Source of the DNA: Streptomyces sp. TRM49041
GTDB taxonomy: Bacteria; Actinomycetota; Actinomycetes; Streptomycetales; Streptomycetaceae
NCBI RefSeq assembly: GCF_008271805.1
Contig: NZ_VSRY01000146.1
Span: 1-64,000, forward strand
Direction of reading: 5' to 3'
Length of the DNA: 64,000 nucleotides
A model generated the notes under the pieces. It was not told the DNA's origin. It did not search any database and saw only the letters and a list, made by a program, of their open reading frames with translations. A program made the position numbers and the translations under genes. Of the stretch, positions 7,121 through 45,777 are shown piece by piece. Each line of letters begins with the position of its first letter. The first letter of the stretch is position 1.

Positions 7121-7178
7121 GGCACTCGGGACAGACAATCGCGGCAAAGCCGACCTGTCCGTTCCCATCTTTCGAGTG

Positions 7179-7222
7179 CCCCCGGCAGGATTCGAACCTG
7201 CGCACACGGCTCCGGAGGCCGT
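7179..7222 (-). other. tRNA-Arg(CCG) 3' half: probable left attachment site of the integrated element
   Basis: On the minus strand the sequence holds a perfect 5-bp anticodon stem (ACGGC/GCCGT) around loop CTCCGGA (anticodon CCG), a short variable loop, and a T-arm GCAGGTTCGAATCCTGC. It ends with the acceptor strand CGGGGGC plus A. The D-arm and 5' acceptor strand are absent at positions above 7222. This is what remains when a tyrosine integrase recombines in the anticodon region and its own attP rebuilds the tRNA at the other end of the element. It implies the element extends rightwards from here and that a complete tRNA-Arg(CCG) sharing these bases marks its far end. Confidence 0.75.
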
Positions 7223-8114
7223 CGGCTTCCCGCATGTTTTCGCAGGTCAGCGGCATACCTGACAGGTTGCCAGGCCCGCCGTCCCGCACATGTCCCGCGA
7301 GAATGAAAAAGCCTATTTTGCTCGCCTTGTCCGTATCATTCCCCGCGGTAGTCGATCCATGCGCCATGACGTAGATCACGACTTCCTCGGGCAAGCGTAG
7401 GGGTATATGGTGCGCCCCTCAATCGAACAAGGTGGCTGCCCGGAGCGTGCGGGCAGGCCAAAAGAGCGGGTTGTGCGCCTGGCTCGGTGGGGGCGCCTAC
7501 GCGCGGTGCCGGGGTGAAGGGTGGCCGACGGGCGCGTCCCGCCGCTTCTCATCCGCATGACCTTGGCGTGTGTGTGTCCCGGCTGGCTCTCCAGCCTCCG
7601 GCGGGCTGAGGGGGACCCGCCCTGACTTGGTGCCGGCGTGGGCACCGAGCCGCAGGTCTGCGCGGTAGACGGTGTTGGCCGGAGGGTGTGATCTCACGAA
7701 CCGCGACGGCGAACGTGCGAGTCGGATGCCGGCGGCTTTGCCGGCAGCCGCAGACCGGCAGGCGAAGGCCAGCCGGCGCGCACCAAGGCCAAGACGGCGC
7801 CGATCTCCCTTCGCCCAGCAGCGCTCGGCGTCGGCGCGACGCTCTTGCGTAATGCCCTGGGAAGGCCGACCGCGGTGGGTCGACCGCGTCCTGGAAGTGC
7901 TGTTCGGGCTGCCTGGTCGTGAATACAGGCGGCCGGTCGTGTGAAGTTGTGAGGCTGAGATTAGGGATGCGGCCTTTCGACGTGCGGGCAGGTGGTGGCG
8001 GTGGACTGTCAATGATCCGGAGGATCGCCGGTTTGGCCAACCGGCGATCCCGCGCTATGTTGCGCTGCCCGTAGCGGTGAGCGCAGGAGAGCCAAGATTT
8101 CCTGAGTTGTTGGT
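7223..8114. other. Gene-poor stretch at the element left end
   Basis: No credible gene is visible in this 892-base stretch. Short open frames are proline- and arginine-rich and lack ribosome sites. TGCCCG and CGGGCA around 7436-7454 form a small hairpin, possibly a terminator. The last 140 bases contain one copy of the dispersed palindromic element (separate entry). Such a region next to an attachment site could carry integrase arm-binding sites, but I see no obvious short repeats that prove this. Confidence 0.5.
7973..8064. repeat. Dispersed palindromic element, copy A
   Basis: A core inverted repeat GGATCGCCGGTT / AACCGGCGATCC (8022-8033 and 8039-8050, loop TGGCC) is followed by CGCGCTATGTTGCGC. 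It is preceded by about 50 bases (CCTTTCGACGTGCGGGCAGG onward) nearly identical to copy B at 24916-25008. It lies about 60 bases beyond the stop of the minus-strand gene at 8115. See the finding on the three copies. Confidence 0.85.
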
Positions 8115-9515
8115 TCAGAGCGGGCGCCGTTTGCGGATGGGCAGGATGCTCAGGGCCATGATGGTGCTGTCGTCCTGGAACGAGATCGGGTCGTTCCATT
8201 TCCCGGCTTCATGGGAGTCACGCCGTTTGGAGCGGAGTTCGTAGGCCGCTTGCCGGTACTCCTCCACGCGGCCGTCTTTGATCAGTTCGTACAATTCTGA
8301 GTCCACTCCGGAGAATGCCTCGATGCGTGCGGTCCCCATGCGGAAGACGTTGTCCGTGCCGACGAATTTCGTGTCGCCGACCTCGATGTCCGCGTCGTCG
8401 ACGCTCGATGTTGCGGCGAAGGCGGGCACGTCGTAGTGCTCTCGCCCTTGGCGGGCGGTGAGATACCCGGCCGTGTATTTCCGTCCGCCCGAGAAAGCGG
8501 TCAGGCCGGCTGCTGCGGTACGGGCCAGGAGCTGGCCGAACCAGGCGAGATCGTCCTCGCCCACCTGGAAGCCGTCGACCGTCCGCGCCCGTCGACCGTC
8601 GCGGGCCGGTACGCGAATGGCGTTGGGGTAGGGGATTCCGGGCTTGTCCCTGATCTCCTCGTCGGCGTCATTCAGGGCGCCGGGTATTCGGAGGGGGAGC
8701 AGAGCCTCGCCTGGGGATTGCAGCACATTGACCACGACCCCGCCCTGGCCCATGAGTTCGGTGGACAGCATCAGGCAGGGCGTGGTGTTCCAGGGGCCGA
8801 TCTGCATGCCCTCGGTCAGTTCCGCTCCCTTGACGAGTTGCTGGATCGTGGTGCTGCGGGTTCGGCCGGTGCGCTTGCTGGGCTTCTGGTGGTTTCCGCG
8901 GCAGGCCACGAAGGTGACTTTCGACGGCTCGCCGGGTTTCCATGCCTCGATGATGTAGTCGGGCCGGGGCCGTGAGCCCTTGTTCCGTTGGGAGACGCTC
9001 AGGGGCCAGCCGGCTCGCAGCACCGTGTTCGTATCGACGACCGAGACGATGTGGTCGGGGTAGCGCTGCTGCACGATGTGCTCCGCCACGGCGAGCCCGA
9101 AGCCGACGGCCAGCTCCCGGGCCTGCATGCCCTTATACCAGCTTTCGGAAGAGCGGCCCTTGTCGGTGAGATCCATGGCGCCGGCGCGATTGCCGTCCAG
9201 CGCCTCGCAGAACTTCAGGCTCAGCCAGTGTTCCGCCAGCCCGCGCCCCATTCCCTGGCCGGCCAGCACGTAGCCGCGGGCTACGGCATGCAGCACCTGC
9301 CACGGCGTCAGGTCAATGGACCGCCCGTGCTCGGCCAGCGCGACCGGCCGCAGGTCGGGCTTCCTGCGCGCTGCCTCCTGGCCCTTCTGTCGGCGCCGCT
9401 TGTCGATGGCCGCCGCCGCGGAGTCCACGTGCGCGGCCAGTTCTGTCGTCGAGTGGATGTGAACGCTCGTCGAGCGGCTGAGAGCGTTCAGGATCTGTCG
9501 CGCGGTTCTCGCCAT
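8115..9515 (-). CDS. Degenerate PD-(D/E)XK-like protein beside the integrase
   Basis: A 466-residue protein starting MARTARQILNAL (ATG 9513-9515). The first 60 residues are helical and basic. A middle region contains RPRPDYIIEAW (residues 182-192) and then TFVACRGNHQKP (201-212), followed by QLVKGAELTEG. The arrangement of PD, hydrophobic strand and VECKG-like strand is that of restriction-type nuclease folds, but the expected Glu and Lys are Ala204 and Arg206. It is therefore either inactive or uses shifted residues. It is divergent from the integrase gene, with 258 bases between starts. I do not know a named family; the nuclease relationship is inference from motif shape. Confidence 0.6.
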   Translation of the reverse strand: MARTARQILNALSRSTSVHIHSTTELAAHVDSAAAAIDKRRRQKGQEAARRKPDLRPVALAEHGRSIDLTPWQVLHAVARGYVLAGQGMGRGLAEHWLSLKFCEALDGNRAGAMDLTDKGRSSESWYKGMQARELAVGFGLAVAEHIVQQRYPDHIVSVVDTNTVLRAGWPLSVSQRNKGSRPRPDYIIEAWKPGEPSKVTFVACRGNHQKPSKRTGRTRSTTIQQLVKGAELTEGMQIGPWNTTPCLMLSTELMGQGGVVVNVLQSPGEALLPLRIPGALNDADEEIRDKPGIPYPNAIRVPARDGRRARTVDGFQVGEDDLAWFGQLLARTAAAGLTAFSGGRKYTAGYLTARQGREHYDVPAFAATSSVDDADIEVGDTKFVGTDNVFRMGTARIEAFSGVDSELYELIKDGRVEEYRQAAYELRSKRRDSHEAGKWNDPISFQDDSTIMALSILPIRKRRPL

Positions 9516-9773: not shown

Positions 9774-11144
9774 ATGGACCTGAACGAGCACCACGGCGTC
9801 GCATCTCAGCCCGAGCAGCCTGCGGACCGAACCCCGGCGCAGCCGCACGGCGGCAGCGCGGTCGCGGGCTTGGCCGGAGAGTTCGGGGCGGAGCTGGTGC
9901 GGGCCATCCGCGTGGGACTGGCCGAGGTGAGCAACTCCGGCCAGGGGGCACAGGGGCCGTCGCACATGAGCTGGTACTCCTTCGCGACCGAGTACGCGCG
10001 AGCCCATTGGCCAGGCCGGGCGGCGAAGACCCGGGACGAGGGAAGCGACGCGCTGACGGCCGTCACGATGGCGATGCTGGGGGACCTGCCGGGCCGGCCG
10101 AACGGGCACCTGCTGCGCCGTGCCCTGCGGCACTGGGCGTTCGTCACGCTCCGGCCCGGACAGGGGGAGATGTCGGCGCAGGACCGGCTGGTGCTGCAGT
10201 GGGTCGCCAAGGCATCCCGTCCCCTGGTGGATCTGCATGATCCGGTCCTGGCACGTGATGTGCTGGAGTCGCTGCGCCGCAAGCTGGACGGGAGTGAGGC
10301 GGCGGTGGAGACGATGCGCCGTAAGCGCAAGGTACTGGTGCACGCGCTGCATTACGCCGTGGAGCGGGGCGAGCTGGGCAGCCACCCGTTGAACAGGGTT
10401 CGCTGGCGGGTGCCTAAACCGGCGGTGGCGGTGGATCCGCGGGTGGTGGCCAACCCGTACCAGGCGCGGGATCTGCTGGACGCCGTCTCCTACGTGGGCG
10501 GCTACCGGAGGGCTCGGGGCCGTCGGCTGGTCGGGTTCTTCGCGGGCATGTACTACGCGGGCCTGCGTCCGGAGGAGGCGGTCGCGGTGGCGCTGCCGGA
10601 CTGCCGGCTGCCCCGCACTGGGTGGGGGCGGCTGATCCTGCACCGTACTCGGCCGCAGGCGGGTAAACGGTGGACCGACACCGGCGAGTTCCATGATGAG
10701 CGCGGGCTGAAGAACCGCCCGCCCGGGGAGACGCGGGTGGTGCCGTTGCCTCCGCATCTGGTGGCGATGTGGAGGGAGCATGTTGCCACGTTCGGCACGG
10801 CCGACGATGGGCGGCTGTTCTTCACCGAGCAGGGCCGGGTCGTCAGCTACTCCACCTACCACCGGGTCTGGCGTGAGAGCCGTGACCTTGCCCTGTCTCC
10901 GGCGCTCACCAGCACGCCGCTCGCGAAGCGGCCGTACGATCTGCGGCATTCGGCGCTGTCCACGTGGCTGTGCGCGGGCGCGGACCCGGCCGAGGTCGCC
11001 CAGCGGGCCGGCAACAGTGTCGAGGTTCTGCTGTCCCGGTACGCGAAGTGCCTGTATGACCGGCAGTCCATCAACAACCAGCGCATCGAAGGGCTGTTGA
11101 GCTCCTACGACCAGCCGCCTGAGCCTGACCAGGCGCACGATTAG
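9774..11144 (+). CDS. Tyrosine recombinase / integrase
   Basis: A 456-residue protein with an SAM-like core-binding region (about 115-210) and a C-terminal catalytic domain: GLRPEE (Arg265), PYDLRHSALSTWL (Arg391, with Tyr388 where many families have His), RAGNSVEVLLSRYAKC (nucleophile Tyr423). The start is ATG 9774 because AAGGAGG at 9762-9768 precedes it, although the frame is open further upstream. It is the likely integrase for the tRNA-Arg attachment remnant 2.5 kb to its left. Bases 9863-10030 have a decayed duplicate at 17591-17754. Confidence 0.93.
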   Translation: MDLNEHHGVASQPEQPADRTPAQPHGGSAVAGLAGEFGAELVRAIRVGLAEVSNSGQGAQGPSHMSWYSFATEYARAHWPGRAAKTRDEGSDALTAVTMAMLGDLPGRPNGHLLRRALRHWAFVTLRPGQGEMSAQDRLVLQWVAKASRPLVDLHDPVLARDVLESLRRKLDGSEAAVETMRRKRKVLVHALHYAVERGELGSHPLNRVRWRVPKPAVAVDPRVVANPYQARDLLDAVSYVGGYRRARGRRLVGFFAGMYYAGLRPEEAVAVALPDCRLPRTGWGRLILHRTRPQAGKRWTDTGEFHDERGLKNRPPGETRVVPLPPHLVAMWREHVATFGTADDGRLFFTEQGRVVSYSTYHRVWRESRDLALSPALTSTPLAKRPYDLRHSALSTWLCAGADPAEVAQRAGNSVEVLLSRYAKCLYDRQSINNQRIEGLLSSYDQPPEPDQAHD

Positions 11145-11383: not shown

Positions 11384-12550
11384 ATGGGGGAACTGTGCGA
11401 ACAGGCCATTTTGCCGTGTATCGAGGGTTCAGCGCTGTGCGCCAGCGCGCACGAGGCAGCCGTGACTCTCGCGCCTGCTGACGGCGGCCGTCGGAGCAGG
11501 CGCGGGTTCGCCTACCAGGATGCCGTCACGTTGCTGGACTGCCTGGACATGCTCGAAGGGCGGTGGACGGCGGTCTCGTGGGAGGACCTGGAGGACATCC
11601 TGTGTCATCGGGATGGCGCCCCCGTATACCGGCAGGTCAAGACGATCGAGGAAGCCGGTACGCGGCACAGTATCGCCAACGTTTGCAAGCCGGAGGAAAA
11701 GAAGGCCGCAGACAGCAGCTATCTGGGCAAGCTGTTCCTGGGCAAGCCGCTGCCGGACGGTACACGGTTCACCTTCATCGTCAACGAGACGCCCCAGCGG
11801 GACCTGTATGCGTTCGTCGCGGAACGTGATCGTCCTCGCGGCCCGGTGAGCGCGGACGCCCGCGCGGACATCGTCAAGAGGCTCAGCGGGGTGCAACTGC
11901 CAGACGGCAGGGACATCGGATGGTGTGTCGACCGCCTGGACGTCCTGGTGGAGGCGCGCACCATCGACCAGGTCGAGGCCGAGGCCATGGCGCGACTGGC
12001 GCCACTGGTGGAAGCGTGCCTGGGCGAGAAACCGCTGTACGAGGAAGTCGAGGAGGTCATGATCTGGCTGATCTCCAAGTACATAGCCCGCAGCGCCCTT
12101 GAGCTGCGACCGACAACCTTCACCGCGGACGACTTCGGCCGGGCCCTGGACGACAGCGTGCGCAGAGCAACCGGGCGACGGCGAGACGGTTCCACCGAAC
12201 TGTTGATGAAACTCAAGCTCAAGCTGCGAGCTGCCGAAATACCGGAGCCCGAGGCGGAAGCCCAGCACGATGCCATGCTCGCCTACCGTCGGACCTACCG
12301 CGCCAGTGTCGGCACCCGGCGCCGCGCGTACGACGACCTGGCCGATCAGATCAACGCCATCTGCACGCTCACGATGGCGAAACGACGCGCCGGACGCCTC
12401 GCCGCCGGCTCGGCGGCGTACTTCGAGACGCTTGTGGCCGTGAGCGAGCTGCCCGAGGTGACCAGCCGGCAGTTCACCCTCGCCGAGGCCCACGCAGTGC
12501 TTTCCGACATCACGGCACGCTGCCAGAACAGGTACGCCGATGCCTCATAA
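11384..12550 (+). CDS. DUF4297/Cap4-type nuclease, effector of a Lamassu-like system
   Basis: The N-terminal part reads RRGFAYQDAVTLLDCLDM, then VSWEDLEDILC and VYRQVKTIEE. This is the DUF4297 form of PD-(D/E)XK nuclease (acidic residues near 67-72, QVK near 84-86), as in CD-NTase-associated Cap4. The remaining 280 residues are helical and probably sense the partner proteins. The gene is first of three overlapping genes with a middle component and an SMC-like ATPase, the gene order of Lamassu / ABC three-component defence systems. An alternative start is GTG near 11462, which would trim 26 residues. On activation the protein is expected to cut DNA; this is family knowledge, not shown here. 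Confidence 0.78.
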   Translation: MGELCEQAILPCIEGSALCASAHEAAVTLAPADGGRRSRRGFAYQDAVTLLDCLDMLEGRWTAVSWEDLEDILCHRDGAPVYRQVKTIEEAGTRHSIANVCKPEEKKAADSSYLGKLFLGKPLPDGTRFTFIVNETPQRDLYAFVAERDRPRGPVSADARADIVKRLSGVQLPDGRDIGWCVDRLDVLVEARTIDQVEAEAMARLAPLVEACLGEKPLYEEVEEVMIWLISKYIARSALELRPTTFTADDFGRALDDSVRRATGRRRDGSTELLMKLKLKLRAAEIPEPEAEAQHDAMLAYRRTYRASVGTRRRAYDDLADQINAICTLTMAKRRAGRLAAGSAAYFETLVAVSELPEVTSRQFTLAEAHAVLSDITARCQNRYADAS

Positions 12551-13118
12551 GATCGGCAGCAGCGTGGTGCCCCCGCTGTATCGCGCCTGGGACCCGGACG
12601 ACTCCCCTGACTTCCACGCAACACGGCTCCTGCTGCTCATCTACCTCTGCGGCGAGGAGCCCGGCCCCTATATCGAGGGACGGACGAAGTTCGCCAAACT
12701 TGATTTCTTCGTGCGCTATCCAGGATTCCTGGAGCGGGCCCACGCCGCGATGCCGGAAGCCGTCGATACCGAAACCGCGTTTCTCGCCCGTGACCCGTCC
12801 GAAGTCGAGGCACCGATGATCCGCTACCGCTACGGACCCTGGGACCAGCGCTACCGGCAATTCCTCGCCTTCCTCGTCTCTCGGGACCTCGTGACCATCA
12901 CCACCCACCGGGTCGAACGAGTGAAACTCAAAGCCGCCGGCAAGAGGACCGCGCAACGCCTTACCGAGGCCCCTCAGTTCCAGCCACTGGTCCGGCGCTG
13001 TCAGGCTATGCGAGGAAATCTGGCTGCCATGTCGGGCACCGACCTGAAGAACCTGATCTACGACCTGTTCCCAGACGAGGTCGGCAACGCGCCCTTCCGC
13101 CAGGAGATCCGGCCATGA
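12540..13118 (+). CDS. Lamassu / ABC-3C middle component
   Basis: A 192-residue protein opening with MPHKIGSSVVPPLYRAWDPD, then LLLLIYLCGEEPGPYIEGRT, FAKLDFFVRYPGFLERA, YRYGPWDQRYRQFLAFLVSRD and LVTITTHRVERVKL. This winged-helix-like pattern with a KLD-FFVRYP segment is characteristic of the accessory (LmuC-like, ABC-3C middle component) proteins that sit between nuclease and SMC genes. It overlaps the nuclease gene by 11 bases and the ATPase gene by 4 (ATGA). No catalytic motif is visible, so it is likely structural or regulatory. Confidence 0.78.
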   Translation: MPHKIGSSVVPPLYRAWDPDDSPDFHATRLLLLIYLCGEEPGPYIEGRTKFAKLDFFVRYPGFLERAHAAMPEAVDTETAFLARDPSEVEAPMIRYRYGPWDQRYRQFLAFLVSRDLVTITTHRVERVKLKAAGKRTAQRLTEAPQFQPLVRRCQAMRGNLAAMSGTDLKNLIYDLFPDEVGNAPFRQEIRP

Positions 13119-15034
13119 CAAAACCCGTGACCGCCCACCCCGACCGCGGGATCAGGATCGACTCCGTCAAGCTCGTCCACAACACCGCAGAAATCGACGA
13201 GTATGCCTTCGGAACCGGCATGCTGAACATCCTCAGCGGGCCCCGCAACAGCTCCAAGACCACCACGCTGAAGGTCATCGACTACTGCTTCGGCGACCGC
13301 GGCGGGATGATCGATGCTCTCGGTGCCGCCGTCTCCGACGAGTACATCGAGGTCTCCACCGCGATCCGGCTCAACGGCCACCCCCGCACCCTGACTCGTC
13401 TCCTCCAGCACGGGCGCATGAACAAGGTGTACGTCGACGGAGACGAGCTGACCGACGCCGACTTCTCCGACTGGATCCTGCGCGAACTGGGCTGGCCCAA
13501 CCTGCGCATCCCCAAGGGTCTCCACCCGGCCACGGCCAGTGAACTGACGCCCTTGTCCTTCCGGAACCTGCTGCGCCACTTCTACCGCAACGAGGAGTCC
13601 TGGACGAGCTTCGCCAACAAGGAGCATGAATTCATCCGGCGCGGCGTCGTCAGCATGCTCCTCGGCTTTGCCGGCTCCCGCTACGACACCAAGGAGTTCG
13701 CCGTCGCCCAGGCCAGGCGGCGCCTTGCCGAAGCCCAGGCAGTGGAGCGGGACGTGCAGGACAGCACATTGCAGGCCGTCACCGCCATCTCCGAACGGCT
13801 CCGCATTCCCGTCGCCCGCACCCTCGACCAGGTAGCGACCGCACGGGAAGAGGTCACCGCTCAACTGCACGCGGTTCGCCAACGACGTCATGAACTGACG
13901 CGCGAGATCAACAGCCTCCTGCAGGGAACGTCCACCACCGAGACGGCAGCCGGATACGACTCGTCACTGACGAGCGCCTACGAAGACATATCCCGGCGGT
14001 TGCAACTGGCGGTCGACGAGGTCGTCGCGCTCGAACAACTCAGCAACGAACACGCCTACTCCGCCCAGACGGTCACCTCGGAAGTGACCCGCATGGAACG
14101 CCTCATCGCCTCCGTGGAGACCTTCGACGCCCTCCCCGTACGACTCTGCCCAGCATGCGAACAACGCGTGGACCCGCACCGAGAGCATGGCGAAGACGCC
14201 TGCTACCTGTGCTTCCAACCGGTCGACGACGACCAGCGCCGCCGACGGGCACACGTGGAGATCCGGTCACTCAAGTCAGAACTTGCCGACCTGGAAGATG
14301 TCACCGCCCGCACCGCCGCCGATCTGCAGACGGCCCGCACCCGCCGAGCAGACCTTCAAAGCGAACAGGCACGGCTCGCGCATCGCATCAACGAAGAACG
14401 CGCCGCGCAGCTGGCCCCCTTCATGGCCAGCCTCGAAAACCTCGCCGCCCAGATCGCCCAGCTCGAACAGAAGATGACAGCCTTTCCCGCCATCGAGGAG
14501 ATCCTCCAACGCCGCGCCGTAGCCAGCCAGGCCGTCACCGCTGCACAACAAGCCGTCGACGCACTCGCCCAAGAGCCCGCCGCAGTTGCCACAGCTACGC
14601 TCACTTCCGTCGAACGATGCGCCCTGTTCGCCGAGCGAATGAACGAATTCCTGCACCGCTACCGCGAACGCGGCTGGGTCAAGGGCGCCATCACCATCAA
14701 CGACAGTGACCTCACTTTCTACGTCGGCACTCGCCCCTGGGACCAAGCCCTGGGGGCAGAGACGAAGGTGCTCTTCTTCCTGGCTTACAGCTACGCCACC
14801 CTGTTCCTGGCCTCTGACCTCGACGAAGGAGCAGCAGCCCCCGGCCTGCTGCTCCTGGACAACCCCTACCAGCAGGGCATCGGCACCACTGTGGTCGACG
14901 ACGTCCTGCAGGATCTGGCAAACGCGGCCCAGGCCACGGGCACCCAGATCATCAGCACCCAAGCCGTTCCGGTGCCACGCGACCCGGCCACCATCCGGCA
15001 AATCCATATGCCCAAGGAGTACGAAGCGCCGTAG
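13115..15034 (+). CDS. SMC/Rad50-like ATPase of the Lamassu-like system
   Basis: A 639-residue protein with an N-terminal ATP loop SGPRNSSKTTTLK (Gly42 to Thr49), two long coiled-coil arms, a central zinc hook (CPAC 345-348 and CYLC 363-366) and a C-terminal LLLLDNP (578-584) at the Walker B position. LGAETKVLFFLAYSYA precedes it where the signature helix should be. The Walker A is unusual: the glycine before Lys is Ser, and Walker B has Asn after Asp. It overlaps the middle component by ATGA. In Lamassu systems this subunit senses foreign DNA ends or structures and restrains the nuclease. Confidence 0.85.
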   Translation: MTKPVTAHPDRGIRIDSVKLVHNTAEIDEYAFGTGMLNILSGPRNSSKTTTLKVIDYCFGDRGGMIDALGAAVSDEYIEVSTAIRLNGHPRTLTRLLQHGRMNKVYVDGDELTDADFSDWILRELGWPNLRIPKGLHPATASELTPLSFRNLLRHFYRNEESWTSFANKEHEFIRRGVVSMLLGFAGSRYDTKEFAVAQARRRLAEAQAVERDVQDSTLQAVTAISERLRIPVARTLDQVATAREEVTAQLHAVRQRRHELTREINSLLQGTSTTETAAGYDSSLTSAYEDISRRLQLAVDEVVALEQLSNEHAYSAQTVTSEVTRMERLIASVETFDALPVRLCPACEQRVDPHREHGEDACYLCFQPVDDDQRRRRAHVEIRSLKSELADLEDVTARTAADLQTARTRRADLQSEQARLAHRINEERAAQLAPFMASLENLAAQIAQLEQKMTAFPAIEEILQRRAVASQAVTAAQQAVDALAQEPAAVATATLTSVERCALFAERMNEFLHRYRERGWVKGAITINDSDLTFYVGTRPWDQALGAETKVLFFLAYSYATLFLASDLDEGAAAPGLLLLDNPYQQGIGTTVVDDVLQDLANAAQATGTQIISTQAVPVPRDPATIRQIHMPKEYEAP

Positions 15035-17756: not shown

Positions 17757-18776
17757 TCAGTATTGCTCGGTCTCGACGAACCTCGTGTCCGCGTCGTTGG
17801 TGGCGAAGGTGTCGACCGCGGCCGTGGGGTCGAATCCGGGCGGGCTGTCCTTGAGGCCCAGGCCCAGTCCGGCCAGCTTCGCCTTGACCTCGTCGATGGA
17901 CTTCGCACCGAAGTTACGGATGTCCATCAGGTCCGCCTCGGAACGCGCCAGAAGCTCACCCACCGAGTGGACGCCCTCACGTTTGAGGCAGTTGTACGAA
18001 CGGACGGTGAGTTCGAGCTCCTCGATCGGCAGCGCCAGATCAGCGGCAAGGGCGGCGTCCGTGGGGGACGGGCCCATGTCGATGCCCTCGGCCTCGATGT
18101 TCAGCTCGCGGGCGAGACCGAACAGCTCGACCAGGGTCTTACCGGCGGAGGCCATGGCGTCACGCGGACGCATCGCTTGCTTGGTCTCGACGTCGACGAT
18201 CAGCTTGTCGAAGTCGGTACGCTGCTCGACACGCGTGGCCTCGACCTTGTACGTGACCTTCAGAACCGGCGAATAGATCGAGTCGACCGGGATGCGCCCG
18301 ATCTCCTGGCCCACCTGCTTGTTCTGCACGGCGGAGACGTAACCGCGACCGCGCTCGACCGTCAGCTCCATCTCCAGCTTGCCCTTGCCGTTGAGCGTGG
18401 CGAGGACGAGGTTGGGGTTGTGTACCTCGACACCGGCCGGAGGCGCGATGTCGGCGGCGGTGACCAGACCCGGGCCCTGCTTGCGCAGGTACATCACGAC
18501 CGGCTCGTCGTGCTCCGAGGAGACGACCAGCTGCTTGATGTTGAGGATCAGATCGGTGACGTCCTCCTTGACGCCCGGCACGGTGGTGAACTCGTGCAGG
18601 ACACCGTCGATACGGATGGACGTGACCGCCGCACCCGGGATCGAGGAGAGGAGCGTGCGGCGAAGGGAGTTGCCGAGGGTGTAGCCGAAGCCCGGCTCCA
18701 GCGGCTCGATCACGAACCGGGAGCGGAACTCGTCGACGACCTCTTCGGTCAACGAAGGACGCTGAGCAATCAGCAC
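17757..18776 (-). CDS. rpoA: Extra RNA polymerase alpha subunit (RpoA paralogue)
   Basis: A complete 339-residue alpha subunit, start GTG 18774-18776 behind GGAGGCAATACC. The N-terminal domain keeps [17 protein letters not shown] (Arg39-Arg40, equivalent to the E. coli Arg45 region needed for beta binding). The C-terminal domain keeps [12 protein letters not shown] (Arg259, Asn262, Cys263) and NFGAKS (Gly290 to Ser293), equivalents of the UP-element contacts around E. coli Arg265. The sequence is very close to Streptomyces housekeeping RpoA as I remember it, differing mostly in the tail. The normal neighbours (rpsK, rpsD, rplQ) are absent: the gene sits between an integrase fossil and a membrane-protein gene. 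It should be able to enter polymerase. Confidence 0.95.
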
Positions 18777-23955: not shown

Positions 23956-24855
23956 ATGGGAGGGGCGGTGTCGAACCTGAAGCTCTACAGCACGAAAGGC
24001 GGCGTGACTGAGGTCACGCCGCGTCTTGCCGAGATCGAAGCCGATGTGCAGAGCCTCGTCGAGGCACACATGGAGACGCTGCTGGGGGTGCGGTTCCTGG
24101 CGAGCGAGTACAGCACGGGGCCGGTCCACGGGGGCCGGATCGATTCGCTCGGGCTGGACGAGAGCGGGTCGCCGGTCATCGTCGAATACAAGCGAGGCGT
24201 CGACTCGGGCGTCATCAACCAGGGCCTGTTCTACCTCAGCTGGCTCATGGACCACCGGGCGGAGTTCGAATACCTGGTCGCCGACCGGCTCGGGGTCACG
24301 GCCGCGGCCCAGGTCCTGTGGCGCGGACCGAGGCTGATCTGCGTCGCCGGCGACTTCACCCGCTAAGACGTATACGCCGTGCGCGAGCACCGGAGGTCGA
24401 TCGATCTGGTCCGCTACCGACTCTTCGGCAGCGACCTGCTCGGGCTTGAGACCGTGGCGTCCGTGAGCGGCGGCATGCAGGTAGCCGGTCGGGTGCACCG
24501 GCAGGCCGTCGCGCGGGCGGCAGCCGACGTCCAGGGTGCGTCGATGGTGGAGCTGGCGAACGCGGTCGACGAGGTGTTGCTCGGTCTCGGGGACGGCGTG
24601 AACCGCGTTGAGCGCAAGACGTACCGGGCGTATCAGCGTCTGCGGAACTTCGCCTGCGTCTGTCCGCCTCAGTTGAGCAAGCTCCTGGTCTACCTGAAGG
24701 TCGACCCGAAGGACGTAGAACTCGTTCCCGGGTTTACCCGGGATGTGTCCGGTCTCGGTCATCACGGGACGGGTGACCTGGAGGTGCAGCTCCGCACGCC
24801 GAGGGACGTGGAGCGGGCGCAGGATCTGTTCCGGGCGAGCTACGCAGCGGCGTGA
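23956..24855 (+). pseudogene. PD-(D/E)XK / DUF5655-type protein broken by one stop codon
   Basis: The first 136 codons give a nuclease-like core: GGRIDSLGLDESGSPVIVEY followed by KRG, with Asp and the E-x-K pair in place, then NQGLFYLSWLMDHRAEFEYLV. A TAA at 24364-24366 ends it after GDFTR. The same frame then continues without further interruption as DVYAVREHRRSIDLVRYRLF to LEVQLRTPRDVERAQDLFRA at 24855, the normal DUF5655-like tail. One base (TAC to TAA) would explain the break. Either the gene has just died, or the second half is translated separately from GTG 24379. Confidence 0.75.
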
Positions 24856-25273
24856 TCGCTTGACGCCACCTTGGCCATGAGTGCTTCGCGCTTGGTCTTG
24901 GTCGTCTGGGTAGTGCCTTTCGACGTACGGGCAGGTCGTGGCGGTGGACTATCAATGATGCGCGGGATCGCCGGTTTGGCTAACCGGCGATCCCGCGCTA
25001 TGTTGCGCCACGCCCGCGCTCATTCCCGCACTGAGGAGCAAGGCTGGCCCGGCGCAGCACGGCCCGCCCGGCGCGCATGGCGCAGCGTCAGAGAGTCCTT
25101 GCGGCATGTGTTGGTCTGTGCCGATTCGACCTTGAGTGATCCACCGAACCGGCAATTGGGACGCACGCATCTCGTACATCTGTCCGAATCCGCCTCTACT
25201 GGCATCCCTTGCACGCGGGTTAACTCAGACCTTCGCCCGGAGCTGGGCGGTAGCGGCTGAGAGGAGAGCTTCG
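24856..25273. other. Gap holding palindrome copy B and the leader of the peptide gene
   Basis: The left half contains copy B of the dispersed palindromic element. The right half (25010-25273) has no gene I can support and should contain the promoter of the peptide/JmjC operon; GAGGAGAG at 25261-25268 is the ribosome site of the peptide gene. Confidence 0.5.
24916..25008. repeat. Dispersed palindromic element, copy B
   Basis: This copy has the longest perfect arms: GCGCGGGATCGCCGGTT at 24960-24976 and its complement at 24982-24998, loop TGGCT, followed by TATGTTGCGCC. The 49 bases before the GGATC core match copy A almost base for base (CCTTTCGACGTACGGGCAGG onward). It lies about 100 bases beyond the 3' end of the broken nuclease gene on the plus strand. 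Confidence 0.85.
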
Positions 25274-34967: not shown

Positions 34968-35853
34968 GGGGCGGTGTGCTCCGGGAGATCGGGTTGGAGA
35001 TGGAGGCGCAGCGGGAGATTCGGTCGGTGACCAGCTGGGCGTGACGCAGGGGCAATGCGTGGGTGGCGTCCGGGATGGTCTCCAGCTGGGCGCCGGGCAG
35101 ACAGGCGGCAAGACGACCGGTCTGCTCGGGCGGGATGTGGGCGTCGAGGCTTCCGGCCAGAAGGTGGACCCGGCCGCCGAGCTGCTGCAGCGGACCGGGG
35201 TCGGGCTGCTGGCCGGCGAGGTTGTGCCACAGGGCAGCGATGTCTCCGGTCGCCATGGTGTGCAGGCCCTGCCGGCACGGCAACGGCAGCGCACCGGACG
35301 TCGGCTGTGCGGGGGAAAGCAGAGCCCACCGGCTGGTGGTGGGAAGGCGCCGCCGGACCGCGTCGAGCAGGTACGGCGCGTGCGTGCACGCGGATTCGAG
35401 AAGGTTGCGGCCCAGCGTGAGCAAGGACTGGGCCGGACCGGTGCCCGTGCGGGTGCTGATGCCGCCGTACGGGGGCGAGATCAGCACGAGCCCGCGGATA
35501 CGGGGCGCGAGGTGGGGGTGGCGCGCGACCAGGCGCATGAGCGTCATCGCTCCCATGGAGTGGCCGGCGAGCACGAGCGGTCCCCGTGGCGCTGTCGTCT
35601 CAAGAACCTGGGCGAGGTCGTCGGCCAGCTGGTTCAGGTCCAGCGGGGCGGTGCCGCGGGTGGAGTAGCCGTGCGCGCGCTGGTCGTAGCGCACGACGCG
35701 CATCCCTTCACGGAGCAGGAGCGGTATGTGCGAGCGCCACAGGGCAGCGGTGACCGAGAGACCATGCGCGAGGACTGCCGTCACGGGTGCTTGTGGAGGA
35801 CCGTCGATGTAGGTGGCGAGCCGGGCACCATCCGGGAGCCGTATCGGCATCAT
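34924..35853 (-). CDS. Alpha/beta hydrolase
   Basis: A 309-residue hydrolase with the oxyanion strand VLAHGLSVTAALW, the nucleophile elbow VLAGHSMGAMTL (Ser in GHSMG), an acid near LLAGSLDAHIPPEQT and a terminal histidine in DATHALPLRH. Start ATG 35851-35853 overlaps the coupling-protein stop (ATGA), so it is translated with the conjugation operon. An esterase or lipase-like enzyme inside a transfer operon is unusual; wall or membrane ester cleavage, or a passenger metabolic gene, are both possible. Confidence 0.85.
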   Translation of the reverse strand: MMPIRLPDGARLATYIDGPPQAPVTAVLAHGLSVTAALWRSHIPLLLREGMRVVRYDQRAHGYSTRGTAPLDLNQLADDLAQVLETTAPRGPLVLAGHSMGAMTLMRLVARHPHLAPRIRGLVLISPPYGGISTRTGTGPAQSLLTLGRNLLESACTHAPYLLDAVRRRLPTTSRWALLSPAQPTSGALPLPCRQGLHTMATGDIAALWHNLAGQQPDPGPLQQLGGRVHLLAGSLDAHIPPEQTGRLAACLPGAQLETIPDATHALPLRHAQLVTDRISRCASISNPISRSTPPHASAQPPRTGRTTP

Positions 35854-37637
35854 GCGGCGGCCCCGAAGTCGGTCTGCCGCGGTGTGTGCTTGGCGACGGC
35901 CCGCTTGGTGATGCCGTCGGAGGCCCGCTTCGAGGCGGCGGTCAGTTCGGCGGCGCCGGGCTCCAGGTACCACGGGCGCAGGTCGAGCATCGCCGCGCGC
36001 ATACCGGTGGCGAAACACAGGGCAGTGCCCTTGGGCAGGGCGCGGATCGCGTCGGCGGGCAAGATCCGCTCCTGCCGCATCGACACGGAGGTCGACTTGC
36101 CGGACTCGGAGTGCGAGGTGGAGGTCGTCTCGACGTCATGGTCGCCAATCAGCCGGGACAGCTTGTCGGCGAAGTCCGGGTCATCGATACCGGAGCCGAT
36201 CACCTTCACGGTGGAGGCCGACCACATGGCGTCCATGCCCGCGTCCCCCCAGACCTTCTGGCCCTGGCGATAGGACTGCAGGATCGTGATCGGGATGATC
36301 CCGCGTGACCCTAGGTGGGAGTACAGGTCCGGCAGGTCGCTGATCTTGCACACGTTGGCGGCCTCGTCGAGGATCGCCAGCATCGGCGGATCCAGGCGTC
36401 CGCCAGCGCGCTCCGCCTGCGCAGTGGCGGCCCGCATCACGGAGTCCGCGCACGCGGCGATCAGCGCCGAGGCACCGCCGCCGCCATCCTTCGACAGCAG
36501 ATAGAGCGTGTCGGTGGAGGCGACGAACTGAGACGGGCGGAACTCGGGGACATCCTTCTGTGGGGTGACCCACGCGGCGATCTCGCTGTTCAGCAGCGCG
36601 GCGGCGTACTGGCGGGCGGTCTCGTAAATGCCGTCCCGTGTCTCCGGCGGGCCTTCCACGGTGCCCTTGAGCTGCGCGGCGACCGCGGCGAAGCCGTGGT
36701 CGCGCAGAACGTCGAGCGGGGTGCGATCGGCGGGGAAGGCCAGCCACTGCATCACGTCCGTAATCGGCCGGTTGTCGAGGGCGGCGGCGAGGAAGAGCTG
36801 CGAGAGGATGTTGCTGCCGGCCTTGGACCAGAAGTCGCCCTGCTGGCTCGCGTCCACGGAGGCGGCAAGGAAGTGGCCGGCCAACCGGCCTGCGCCGTCG
36901 AGGGTCTTGGCGTCGGCGAGGGGATTCCACCACATCTCCCGAGCGGCGTGCGCGATCTGCTGCGGATCCATCGACCAGACCTGTCCCACGGCCGCTCGGG
37001 CGTCCAGGGTGGCGGTATAGGCGTCACCGGCGGCCTTGTTGGAGGTGAGTAGGACCGGGCCGGGGGCGGCGAGGATGGACGGGATCGCGAGGCTGGTGGT
37101 CTTGCCGGATCGTGGAGCCATGATCGCGACGGCGACGTCCTCGTATCCCATGCGAACCTCGTGACGGGTGCCTTGCAGGTTGCCGAGGAGGATGCCGGTG
37201 TCCTTGGCGTCGATGTGCTTGGCGGCCTTCAGGCTCGGGCGCAGGGAGCGGGCCTTGGCGGTGATCGCCTTGGCCATCAGCGGTTCGATGTCCCTGGCCT
37301 TGGCCATGCCGGTGATCTTCTTCCGGCCGCTGCCGCTGGTCTTGTAGCGGGACCACAGGACGCCGGCCGCAGCGCCGAGCGCGAGCAGCGCTGCGATCGG
37401 GACGATCCGAGCGCCGACAAGCAGGGACGCTTCTCCCACCTGGGGCCAGAGCTGATCAGGGTGGAGGAGGGCGGCGGTCGGCTGGTAAGGCGCCCAGTGG
37501 TCGACGGTCAGCCACGCGGTGATGTTGCCGGACAGCCAGGCGAGATGGGACAGCGGGACGACGACGCCGAGCACTCCGAGAAGGAGACGGAAGACGATGT
37601 CGTACCCGTCGGAGGAACTGTTGGAGGAGGGTGGCAA
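35850..37637 (-). CDS. VirD4/TraG-type coupling ATPase of the conjugation system
   Basis: A 595-residue protein with two N-terminal membrane segments (about 14-42 and 73-96). Then come AIMAPRSGKTTSLAIP (Walker A, about 172-187), WWNPLADAKT, SLDPTOP-like DPQQIA, LAILDEAANVCKISDLPDL (Walker B near residue 400) and VIGSGIDDPDFADKLSRLIG. These are the type IV coupling-protein hallmarks. TTG 37637 lies just after GGAG. Its presence shows transfer of a relaxosome-type, single-strand substrate rather than the TraB double-strand mechanism of small Streptomyces plasmids. Confidence 0.92.
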   Translation of the reverse strand: MPPSSNSSSDGYDIVFRLLLGVLGVVVPLSHLAWLSGNITAWLTVDHWAPYQPTAALLHPDQLWPQVGEASLLVGARIVPIAALLALGAAAGVLWSRYKTSGSGRKKITGMAKARDIEPLMAKAITAKARSLRPSLKAAKHIDAKDTGILLGNLQGTRHEVRMGYEDVAVAIMAPRSGKTTSLAIPSILAAPGPVLLTSNKAAGDAYTATLDARAAVGQVWSMDPQQIAHAAREMWWNPLADAKTLDGAGRLAGHFLAASVDASQQGDFWSKAGSNILSQLFLAAALDNRPITDVMQWLAFPADRTPLDVLRDHGFAAVAAQLKGTVEGPPETRDGIYETARQYAAALLNSEIAAWVTPQKDVPEFRPSQFVASTDTLYLLSKDGGGGASALIAACADSVMRAATAQAERAGGRLDPPMLAILDEAANVCKISDLPDLYSHLGSRGIIPITILQSYRQGQKVWGDAGMDAMWSASTVKVIGSGIDDPDFADKLSRLIGDHDVETTSTSHSESGKSTSVSMRQERILPADAIRALPKGTALCFATGMRAAMLDLRPWYLEPGAAELTAASKRASDGITKRAVAKHTPRQTDFGAAA

Positions 37638-38463: not shown

Positions 38464-39008
38464 CTCCGCCCCGGCTTGGCACGGTTGGACGCCGGGACCG
38501 CGGTCACGGTCGGCGACGGGACCGATGGCGTGGGCGCGTGCCGGGCTGCGGAGTTGATGTCCCGGACGACGTCGCCGTGAGTGGCCCAGGTGTCGAGATA
38601 GCTCCAGCATTCGGCGTGGTGCTCGGCGAGGACGTCGTCGAAGGCCGGGGTACCTGACCGGGCGGCGGCGGGAAGGCTTTCACGGGTCTGGACCCACTCG
38701 CCGTGTAGCTCATCCAGGCGGTCGAGCGCGTCACGCAGGACGCCGAGCTGCCACCCCCAGTGGCTCCGCACTGCGTGGGCGGGCAGGTGGGCGAGCTGAA
38801 TCTCGGCTGTGGCCAGCAGGTAGCGGGCACCGGCGCGCACGGTCTCGAACGCAGCCGCCGTGTCGGCGTCGCGCTGGCTCTTGCGCACCCCGTAGGCGTG
38901 GTCGTCGTACGGCCAGCCGTCGAGACCGGTGTGCTCGTCGGAGTACGCGTCCCAGGCGTCGAGGATCTTCTTGCTGTCACCGACGAAGCCGTCGAGGTGA
39001 CGCAGCAA
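38460..39008 (-). CDS. Helical protein of unknown function
   Basis: A 182-residue protein, mainly helical, with WDAYSDEHTGLDGWPYDDHA near the start, a long helix region rich in Ala and Leu, and a C-terminal YLDTWATHGDVVRDINSAAR segment before a proline- and basic-rich tail. The WATHGDVVRD-type ending resembles WADHGSIAANLAD in the protein at 47127-48311, so these may be diverged relatives. It is coupled by GTGA to the next DUF317 gene. Confidence 0.6.
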   Translation of the reverse strand: MLRHLDGFVGDSKKILDAWDAYSDEHTGLDGWPYDDHAYGVRKSQRDADTAAAFETVRAGARYLLATAEIQLAHLPAHAVRSHWGWQLGVLRDALDRLDELHGEWVQTRESLPAAARSGTPAFDDVLAEHHAECWSYLDTWATHGDVVRDINSAARHAPTPSVPSPTVTAVPASNRAKPGRR

Positions 39009-43899: not shown

Positions 43900-44757
43900 C
43901 TACGGTGATCGCCGTACGGCTGCCGTGATGCTAGGCAGTACCAGGAAGGCTGTGCGTGGCCGGGTGGGTGCGTTCAGGTGGGTCGCGGTGGTGTCGAGGT
44001 CCTGCTGGATCCCGTAGAGGCGGCGGGCGATCAGCTCCAGGCGGTGCGCCATGGCGGTGCTGGCGGCATCGGGCTGGTGGGCGATGCGGTGGGCGGTGTG
44101 CTCGACGAGTCCGCGCACTGTGGCCAACGGGCCGGTCTGCTCGTCGGCGAGCTGCGAGAGGATGGCCGCGAGCTGGGCTGATGCTGTGGAGGCGGACCGG
44201 GCGAGGGCTGGCGGCCTTGGAGTGCTTCGTACGGGCATCAGGCGCAGGTCCTGCTCGATGCGGCGGGACTCGGCCGAGAGGCGTCGCAGGACCGCGGCAG
44301 GTTGCGTGTGCCAGGAACCGTCGAGGCGGATCAGGTTGGCGATCAGGTCGAGGCGTCCAGGCTGGGCATGGACGGCGATCCACCGGCAGCCGTTCGGCTC
44401 GCCGGGGACTTCGATGCCCGCGGCGCGGGCCAGCCGGTGGGCAACTTCAGCCCATTCGGGGCCGGTCAGCTCACGGTCGTCGGGGCGGAGCCGGACGTCG
44501 AGGTGGAAGATCGCGCGCCGGTCGCCGTTCGCGCTGGCGGCGAACGGGTGCTCCATGAGCGGCTCTTCGAGGTGCTCAGCCCACTGGAGGGACGTCCAGA
44601 TCTTCTGCTCGTCGTCCAAGGTGTAGGAGTCGAGGCCCGGCCAGTGGGCGACGACGGTGTGCTCGGTCAGCCCCTCGTCCGGCGACACCGGACGTCCCAG
44701 CGCCTCGGTGAGCACGTCGTTCGGCGTGTGGGTCCGCTCGTGGAGACGGGGAATCAC
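43900..44757 (-). CDS. Relaxase-like protein lacking the HxH metal motif
   Basis: A 285-residue protein starting GTG 44755-44757 (GTGA overlap). The segment RAIFHLDVRLRPDDRELTGP, then EWAEVAHRLARAAGIEVPGE and CRWIAVHAQPGRLDLIANLI, matches the relaxase/mobilisation family of Streptomyces elements. There the last part normally reads like HAEDHIHIVATL. Here the HIH positions are Arg135, Leu136 and Asp137, so metal binding should be lost. The N-terminal catalytic tyrosine region of a relaxase is not evident either. It may be a relic or a non-catalytic relaxosome protein. The family link is from remembered motifs. Confidence 0.65.
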   Translation of the reverse strand: MIPRLHERTHTPNDVLTEALGRPVSPDEGLTEHTVVAHWPGLDSYTLDDEQKIWTSLQWAEHLEEPLMEHPFAASANGDRRAIFHLDVRLRPDDRELTGPEWAEVAHRLARAAGIEVPGEPNGCRWIAVHAQPGRLDLIANLIRLDGSWHTQPAAVLRRLSAESRRIEQDLRLMPVRSTPRPPALARSASTASAQLAAILSQLADEQTGPLATVRGLVEHTAHRIAHQPDAASTAMAHRLELIARRLYGIQQDLDTTATHLNAPTRPRTAFLVLPSITAAVRRSP

Positions 44758-45179
44758 CGGCTGCCCCGGGCATCGGCGATGTGCACCAACTGGTTGAGGG
44801 CGGTGGTGGTGTACCAGCCGCAGTCGATCAGGGTGTTGTCGTCGGTGTACTTCGACAGAAGGGCATCTTCCATGGCCCGGAGATGGATCAGGCAGTCCGG
44901 GCAGCGACGCGAGAGGTGCACGAGGTAGCGGGGGTGGGCGGTGATGTACGTCTGTGCGCCGCCAGTCGCATCGCGCAGCCGCCATCCGTCCTCGTCGGTC
45001 GGGGTGTGCCAGGACGGGGCGACCACGCGCATGGCGTCTCCCCACAGTTCTCCGCCGGCGACCCCCTTCAGGACGACGACCGTGTCGCCGGCCTGGAAGT
45101 GGGCGTGGGTGATGTCCCGGTTGGGGGTGAGCGGGTCGGGTGTCGGAGCGAACGCCGGAGTGGGCGGGGGCTGGGACAT
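44754..45179 (-). CDS. Small plasmid-family protein
   Basis: A 141-residue protein starting MSQPPPTPAFAPTPDPLTPN (ATG 45177-45179). After a proline-rich head it has a beta-rich segment, FQAGDTVVVLKGVAGGELWG then VVAPSWHTPTDEDGWRLRDA, and a RRCPDCLIHLRAMEDALLSK helix with CxxC. It is followed by a GTGA overlap into the relaxase-like gene. Palindrome copy C lies just upstream of its start. Function unknown. Confidence 0.62.
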   Translation of the reverse strand: MSQPPPTPAFAPTPDPLTPNRDITHAHFQAGDTVVVLKGVAGGELWGDAMRVVAPSWHTPTDEDGWRLRDATGGAQTYITAHPRYLVHLSRRCPDCLIHLRAMEDALLSKYTDDNTLIDCGWYTTTALNQLVHIADARGSR

Positions 45180-45200: not shown

Positions 45201-45275
45201 GGGTGGCGGTGGGAGGAACAATGGTCCAGAGGATCGCCGGTTTGGCTAACCGGCGATCCTCGGCTATGTTCCGCC
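45201..45275. repeat. Dispersed palindromic element, copy C
   Basis: GAGGATCGCCGGTT (45229-45242) pairs with AACCGGCGATCCTC (45248-45261), loop TGGCT, followed by GGCTATGTTCCGCC. GGTGGCGGTGG lies 29 bases before the core, as in copies A and B. Relative to copy B the outer stem pair has changed on both sides (GGG/CCC to GAG/CTC), keeping the pairing. It lies between two minus-strand genes of the conjugation operon. Confidence 0.85.
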
Positions 45276-45279
45276 CCAG

Positions 45280-45777
45280 TCAGCGGAACGGGTTCTCCGT
45301 CCCGCGGTCGTCTTCGCCGGCGGCGTCGAGGAGTTCGAGCAGGTCGGTGCCCTCCGCGTCCCGCTGGTCGATCCACCATCCGGCGCGGGTGATGGAGCGC
45401 GCCTTCTCTTCCAGCTCCGCCCAGTCCGCCTCGTCCCAGGACCCCTCGACGACCAGCGCGGTGTGCGAGGAGGTCATCAGCTGGTGGCGGGATCGCCCGC
45501 CCCAGTCGAGGGCCTTCTCCGGACCCTCCAACTGCGGCATGTCGAACTTCTCCGCCCACTCGACGGCAGCCTGCTGCTCCTCGGCGCGCTTGGCGGCGAG
45601 CCACTCCTTCGTGGACTTTGTGTCGGCATCGCGAGCCGCCTTCCAGCAGTCGGTGCAGTCCCGGCCGGCGAGCCAGCGGGCGAATCCGGCGCGCTTGTCG
45701 GCGGGACGGTTGGACAGGTCATGGACGACCTCGTGGGAGCAGGAGTGCTCCACAGTCCACTGCGTACGGACAGCCAT
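45280..45777 (-). CDS. Small plasmid-family protein with CxxC
   Basis: A 165-residue acidic protein starting MAVRTQWTVEHSCSHEVVHD. CSHE and RDCTDCWKAARD supply cysteines and histidine for a possible zinc site, followed by a charged helix (KEWLAAKRAEEQQAAVEWAE) and a C-terminal SRHQLMTSSHTALVVEGSWD region. It resembles short proteins found repeatedly on Streptomyces plasmids. Function unknown. Confidence 0.65.
   Translation of the reverse strand: MAVRTQWTVEHSCSHEVVHDLSNRPADKRAGFARWLAGRDCTDCWKAARDADTKSTKEWLAAKRAEEQQAAVEWAEKFDMPQLEGPEKALDWGGRSRHQLMTSSHTALVVEGSWDEADWAELEEKARSITRAGWWIDQRDAEGTDLLELLDAAGEDDRGTENPFR

Follow-up and report, generated by a model that had tools for sequence, protein, structure and literature searches.

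A conserved palindromic hairpin site beside mobile-element genes of Streptomyces and its possible role as a start signal on single-stranded DNA

Introduction

Several signals described on conjugative and mobilizable elements resemble, in part, the palindromic site reported here from Streptomyces, one strand of which reads CAAT-stem-TATGTT. Its proposed action is likened to that of Frpo/ssi of the F plasmid, or of sso of rolling-circle plasmids, by analogy and without relatedness being implied. In passages of PMC11541004, Frpo candidates are assessed by the -35, -10 and UP elements that their fold contains; the genes are placed on the leading region of the T-strand. Like Frpo/ssi of F and its relatives, the Streptomyces site is a hairpin before early genes of conjugative elements, with several copies per element and a -10-like sequence on the folded arm; host RNA polymerase is assumed to be its reader here. 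Unlike Frpo/ssi, it has a stem of ~17 bp, a -35-like TTG in the loop and copies on both strands.

Other systems share one signal between different elements. For example, oriT mimics provide a site common to a helper and to elements without transfer genes. Those of S. aureus plasmids (PMC4652767) differ from the present site, which is found several times per element, in either orientation and at fixed gene borders. In addition, SGI1 hijacks AcaCD, according to the abstract of PMC7826253, and the AcaCD operators of IncC plasmids and SGI1-type integrative and mobilizable elements (IMEs) are similar to the site in being one signal for helper and satellite. In contrast to these operators, the site is a long covarying palindrome with no leftward -10 adjacent, and the 8-20 kb covered around each copy gave no activator for it. 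The sps palindrome is likewise conserved on Streptomyces conjugative elements. In passages of PMC4170104 it measures 12 bp, is bound by SpdA2 and forms 2-3 repeats in or near spdA on Streptomyces plasmids, whereas the hairpin site is 60-70 nt long and intergenic.

A literature search by keywords and sequence words, with full texts and subscription papers partly covered, returned no description of the hairpin site among the matches listed, and it is not described in passages of PMC9513070, PMC4170104, PMC10711302 and PMC11541004. The site is a real, conserved cis-element that is common to Streptomyces integrative conjugative elements (ICEs) and IMEs, is found mainly beside mobile-element genes, and occurs in Kitasatospora too.

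The conjugative element in the window

The window, meaning the whole 64,000-nt stretch of Streptomyces sp. TRM49041 DNA that was analysed (on contig C143), is part of a large ICE with genes for a coupling protein, a VirB4-like protein and other T4SS-type functions. Its main features are listed below, with each copy of the site given in the 70-nt frame of the covariance model; A-type refers to a gene context described further on.

7176-7222 (-): 47-nt repeat found in identical form on contig C101, lying here within a stretch that resembles a tRNA (30 bits in Rfam)
8001-8070 (+): copy A, A-type, between the att-like repeat and an integrase-like gene
8115-9428 (-): g7, right neighbour of copy A
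9774-11144 (+): g8, tyrosine-integrase-like, 37-60% identical to the near-site integrases of loci L088, L105 and L107
24944-25013 (+): copy B, A-type, 17-bp stem with no mismatch, downstream of the DUF5655/PDC-S18 gene
35850-37637 (-): TraG/TraD-type coupling protein of the ICE
43900-44757 (-): g40, relaxase-like solely by BLAST to the relaxases of smaller elements
44754-45179 (-): g41, conserved 141-aa protein, first gene past copy C on the CAAT side
45210-45279 (+): copy C, in the gap between the g42 stop and the g41 start, antisense to both genes
45280-45777 (-): g42, stop 34-36 nt from the hairpin centre at copy C and its relatives
54040-55554 (-): VirB4-like ATPase (NCBIfam E 8.7e-20, under the curated cut-off)

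The 47-nt repeat may be an att repeat and the end of the ICE; ARAGORN found no tRNA in the window. The Pfam match of g8 itself falls under the cut-off (E 0.018), and g40 matches no Pfam or NCBIfam family. The predicted model of g41, which is of modest confidence, and that of dns, a small gene introduced below, had no Foldseek match with E <= 0.001, and g41 was not found in the viral contigs searched. Other ICE genes in the window encode DUF317 proteins, a DnaB-N protein accompanied by a Dcm methylase, an NlpC/P60 protein and an SCO6881-family protein with a weak TrbL match. The DUF5655/PDC-S18 gene, a NucS-like candidate defence gene of the PADLOC listing, is a single frame in relatives and two frames here (23968-24366 and 24379-24855).

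Defence genes of Lamassu-like kind at 11531-15034 (LmuB and a weak match to HamA1/Cap4-nuclease) adjoin the integrase-like gene of the ICE, and an extra RNA polymerase alpha-subunit gene lies within the ICE at 17757-18776 (-).

Copies of the site and their distribution

A 27-nt palindromic core, GATCGCCGGTTTGGCYAACCGGCGATC, recurs exactly at 8023-8049, 24966-24992 and 45232-45258, always on the + strand, where 0.00 copies are expected (100 shuffles, up to 3 mismatches allowed). This bears out the three-copy palindromic element at ~8.0, 25.0 and 45.2 kb noted in a preliminary description of the window. The conserved right flank and similar left block claimed there are also present in all three copies: the right tails read CTATGTTGCGCT, CTATGTTGCGCC and CTATGTTCCGCC, and the left block resembles GGTGGCGGTGG. 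The same description proposed compensating changes in the stem. These stand for copies B and C, in which pair 21/51 is G-C in one and A-T in the other and pair 20/52 is C-G versus G-C, but copy A breaks both pairs. As copy C also breaks pair 19/53, the three copies alone are no proof of a kept stem. Orientation relative to the nearest genes does differ, as had been stated: the right neighbour of copy A is on the - strand, the neighbours of copy B are both on + and those of copy C both on -.

The source genome holds seven copies in 7.5 Mb, on three contigs with mobile-element genes (C143, C99 and C101), in agreement with the earlier view of a few-copy element tied to mobile elements. The copies outside the window are:

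C143:65433-65502 (-): copy beyond the window, bringing the total for C143 to four
C99:91477-91546 (-): copy on the C99 contig
C101:38193-38262 (+) and 38748-38816 (-): two copies facing each other, ~550 nt apart

On C101, a mobilizable-looking element (locus L047, 7640-18507) has the 47-nt repeat, an integrase gene or its remnant, two facing sites and the Wadjet type III genes JetA, JetC and JetD. In the C99 element, the tyrosine integrase (L046, 1315-2832, -) contains a match to a LacI-type helix-turn-helix. Another gene set, at ~78.9-92 kb of C143 (L041, L042), encodes WhiB and HTH_36 proteins and a PF03432 relaxase and has no copy of the site. A relaxase at C143:83702-85444 is ~18 kb from the nearest site, and is 67-69% identical to site-adjacent relaxases in L063, L067, L068 and L083.

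BLAST found relatives of the site in 89 of the 199 Streptomyces genomes sampled, with 1-8 matches in each positive one, and they were found by covariance model in 86 of 197 genomes of the order (one of six genera, 1-14 matches each); the two sets overlap, and match counts include opposite-strand echoes of the palindrome. Such numbers differ from the hundreds of unrelated sites that the preliminary description had named as the finding that would speak against it. Across the class, 15 of 296 genomes were positive by covariance model, in one of 114 genera. A pattern scan returned at least 120 stretches, of which 80 are among the matches listed (78 Streptomyces and two Kitasatospora aureofaciens); 118 of 120 stretches are distinct. 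All four plasmid records that carry the site are from Streptomyces. One IMG/VR contig has it, beside what appears by eye to be a DUF5655 gene of A-type, and copy A had no match in 50,697 phage records. The plant pathogen Streptomyces scabiei 87.22 has at least two distinct copies (L204, L262).

Gene contexts and orientation

Markers assigned 98 of 121 pattern loci (120 among the matches of the pattern scan, and the IMG/VR contig) to a context class and left 23. Ten of the latter were inspected, and included the 388-aa integrase three times, the serine recombinase once, the xis-like gene once and an apparent A-type context three times. Context labels were initially given by eye and part of them then tested by domain searches, while gene starts are the output of a simple custom gene caller. 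In 12 of 44 loci the site escaped a fixed pattern; four of these (L049, L052, L072 and L082) were recovered by a later search.

The site holds constant positions at several gene borders. At relatives of copy C, g41 starts 65-67 nt from the hairpin centre, and the site precedes g41 at 29 of 30 homologues, with the exception (L183) retaining half a site. Smaller elements with MobC and a PF03432 relaxase have a small gene behind the relaxase, given the working name dns. The site lies between relaxase and dns, ~60-70 nt before the latter, at 23 of 30 dns homologues, and is retained where dns is merely 25-26% identical. Outside these 23 are L154, with another hairpin, L157, a second dns gene sharing the L134 site, and the homologues without a site (L137, L145, L146, L149 and L155).

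Further sites lie at the border between g60 and g61, and before HTH-int, recombinase-xis-int, tyrosine integrases of 464 aa and 388 aa, a serine recombinase and a xis-like gene with HTH_17; integrase starts are 156 to ~900 nt away. In these contexts and those of g41 and dns, nine classes in all (with g61 counted for the g60/g61 border), the CAAT-side gene is directed away from the site. The main exception is the A-type, with copies A and B, which lies behind a DUF5655 gene, mostly in a convergent gap, and has no leftward gene. Among 70 copies, 39 have a called CAAT-side gene that reads away, 26 (23 of them labelled A) one that reads towards the site, and five none. The misfits outside A-type, by called genes, are L061, L080 and L082, and also L243 and L253. 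The leaders of L061 and L082 nonetheless show a ribosome site and a start 66 nt away, and a mechanical search found leftward frames 18 to 253 nt away at 7 of 7 loci tried, which is weak evidence.

Large elements carry 3-6 copies and small ones 1-2, and single elements have sites on both strands. Of the 15 groups with at least three copies among the matches listed, 13 have them converging (+..+-..-), as do G013, G226 and G173 from the class sample. G163-C111 (++-+), G246 (+++) and G227 (--+) are exceptions. None of the eight two-copy groups among the matches listed diverges, and six run in the same direction. At two-copy loci the copies face each other in eight cases (L047, L057, L063, L067, L068, L074, L083 and L086) and run in one direction in L080, L088 and L106. 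Since element operons mostly run outwards, polarity and antisense position are not separable.

Within the 8-20 kb covered at each copy, no gene family is present at every locus. None of the FtsK-like domains of the source genome lies on C143, C99 or C101, and a C121 protein taken for TraB had matches at 0 of 121 site loci, a weak test with a single query.

Structure and promoter-like signals

The palindrome is ~60 nt long and constant in length, with a gap-free alignment in 53 of 54 copies. Its inner half-sites are near-identical. The outer stem covaries: in 54 non-redundant copies, uncorrected for kinship, 59 cells are changed on both sides versus 29.3 +/- 3.9 after shuffling.

Which strand folds is less clear. 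Calculated with RNA energies, the fold of the CAAT...TATGTT strand is the better one in 60 of 77 copies and that of the other strand in 13, a preference that comes largely from pairing of the conserved flanks and that is seen in 52 of 61 copies outside A-type and not in A-type itself (8 of 16). DNA energies favour the same strand at three of five sites and not at two, by margins of at most 1.2 kcal. Over pairs 18-27 there are 31 G.T and 35 A.C cells, counts which give no choice of strand (the shifted copy L006:2048 is excluded here and from the TA and TTG counts below). On these results the functional strand is a guess. Rfam gave four weak matches in six loci, none of them on a site, and an Rfam RNA family was rejected for these loci.

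Promoter-like sequences are distributed unevenly around the hairpin. In the leaders of g41 and dns, a start codon is found in 47 of 52 cases, 39-57 nt from position 16 (26 at 45-46), and none was found in the other five. A leftward TANNNT between stem and ribosome site occurs in 0 of 23 and 0 of 29 leaders (4.2 and 4.4 expected), or 0 of 52 when pooled, with 8.6 expected from base shuffles. On the right arm, TANNNT is present in 21 of 23 and 21 of 29 (2.1 and 2.3 expected; pooled 42 of 52 versus 4.4). TA stands at 56-57 in 76 of 76 copies, which were partly selected by a tail-based search, and diverged tails keep it without a T run (TATAAG, TATACG, TACGAC). TTG at 33-35, 17 nt before TA, is present in 48 of 76 copies and in only 6 of 23 diverged ones. 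Frpo/ssi have their -35 and -10 in duplex form, which the hairpin site does not offer: for all the constancy of its TA, the TTG sits in the hairpin loop and not in a duplex.

Possible functions of the site

One possible role of the site is that of a start or control signal shared by integrase, transfer and accessory genes. The best explanation, to which we give roughly one chance in three, is that the hairpin acts directionally on single-stranded DNA, as the point from which transcription or priming sets out towards the CAAT-side gene. With the site in front of int/xis, relaxase-T4SS and accessory operons, the strand CAAT-stem-TATGTT would fold when the element becomes single-stranded, during transfer or displacement replication. 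Its 3' arm would then present the -10-like TATGTT, 17 nt from the TTG-bearing loop, at the weakly paired stem base. Host RNA polymerase, or a primase, would start at the hairpin base and run out over the CAAT side, with the folded right arm as the non-template strand of a promoter leaving that base. The product would be either a transcript with a ~30-nt leader for the CAAT-side gene or a primer. In favour of this explanation are the direction of the CAAT-side gene in nine classes, the start codons in 47 of 52 g41 and dns leaders, the TANNNT on the right arm in place of a leftward one, the constant TA, the covarying outer stem and the strand preference by RNA energies. A site read by a host enzyme would also agree with the two copies on the C101 element, which has integrase and Wadjet genes in the 20 kb covered. 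A doubtful and more far-reaching proposal is that unrelated Streptomyces ICEs and IMEs use one host-read hairpin, by which integrase, relaxase-linked and accessory genes would be expressed from incoming single-stranded DNA and satellites would need no regulator of their own.

Several observations speak against a hairpin start signal. A single strand is transferred, yet copies of the site lie on both; the stem is too short for a duplex -35, and few diverged copies have the TTG. At A-type copies there is no gene for the signal to serve, 26 of 70 called CAAT-side genes or gaps read towards the site, and integrase starts can be hundreds of nt away. The strand preference is not robust to DNA energies or to the G.T and A.C counts. 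Relaxase-T4SS genes, moreover, are donor functions, and would be better suited to an operator.

Such an operator, already suggested as a protein-bound site in the preliminary description, stays a serious rival and is ranked directly below the hairpin start signal, although it too is on balance somewhat improbable. Here a dimeric regulator of the large ICE, either activator or repressor, would bind the duplex palindrome and switch on int/xis, relaxase-T4SS and accessory operons, and IMEs would carry the operator in order to respond to a helper, as SGI1 does with AcaCD. The near-identical inner half-sites favour this, as do the fixed orientation relative to the gene in nine classes and the position before both ICE mobility operons and the integrase/xis genes of other elements, on helper and satellite alike; a duplex site also allows both strands to be used. 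However, the outer-stem covariation is not needed for duplex binding, the loci share no gene family within 8-20 kb and some integrase starts are hundreds of nt off. From the missing leftward TANNNT before g41 and dns (0 of 52) and its presence on the right arm, we infer that a hairpin promoter is preferable. The covarying stem could also belong to a leader in the sense mRNA (the reverse strand), where the hairpin would govern expression, processing or attenuation of the next gene. We consider this unlikely: operon contexts agree with it, with the hairpin centre 34-52 nt past the upstream stop and 60-98 nt before the next start, but the would-be mRNA strand folds worse in 60 of 77 copies by RNA energies, A-type copies have no gene to control, and no Rfam match falls on the site. 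Less probable again is a polar replication or maintenance site (for lagging-strand priming, or as a signal for the fork or for segregation) with a symmetrical arrangement on the circular form. Near-constant start-codon spacing is not required by such a site, its polarity is confounded with outward transcription, and the three exceptional groups, the six same-direction pairs and L080, L088 and L106 depart from the converging order seen in 13 of 15 groups among the matches listed, in three class-sample groups and in eight facing pairs; the higher copy number on large than on small elements would fit.

An intrinsic terminator or insulator at operon borders is very improbable. It would account for a GC-rich hairpin at gene borders, some of them convergent, with UAUGUU after the stem on one strand, but a scan around copy C, the sole stretch covered, gave no terminator-like match, diverged copies keep TA and lack a T run, and the site sits before integrase starts. 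With flanks conserved on both sides as well, the earlier argument that the element is more than a plain terminator is upheld. The least probable role is that of an oriT or oriT mimic, in which the hairpin and TATGTT-GCGCC tail would be a relaxase substrate that IMEs carry for mobilization. Relaxase or relaxase-like genes lie nearby in both element classes, there are also loci without a relaxase match, and there may be a likeness to the RSF1010 nic region. Nevertheless, large elements carry 3-6 copies, in either orientation, where an oriT would be one site by the relaxase operon. The previously proposed transfer signal is thus a poor fit in the strict oriT sense, and the 67-69% identical relaxase of C143 has no site nearby.

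In summary, terminator, parS, REP and single-oriT models fit badly. Three roles raised at the outset are now considered unlikely. For a partition site (parS/ParABS), ParB_N was found in the source genome only on C141 and C149, and not on the three contigs with sites; a phage packaging signal was rejected on the phage records, which gave 0 matches; and a REP-type repeat or small mobile hairpin is at odds with seven copies in 7.5 Mb at fixed gene borders, the place being kept while the adjacent protein drops to 25-26% identity.

Implications for Streptomyces mobile elements

The site provides a sequence signature for the conjugative and mobilizable elements of Streptomyces, even for one that shows little beyond an integrase and a defence system in the stretch covered. 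This offers a handle for cryptic mobile islands in a genus that is mined for antibiotics. If the site is a start or control signal, helper and satellite elements would be linked by one cis-code, and recipient gene expression in Gram-positive conjugation would become directly testable.
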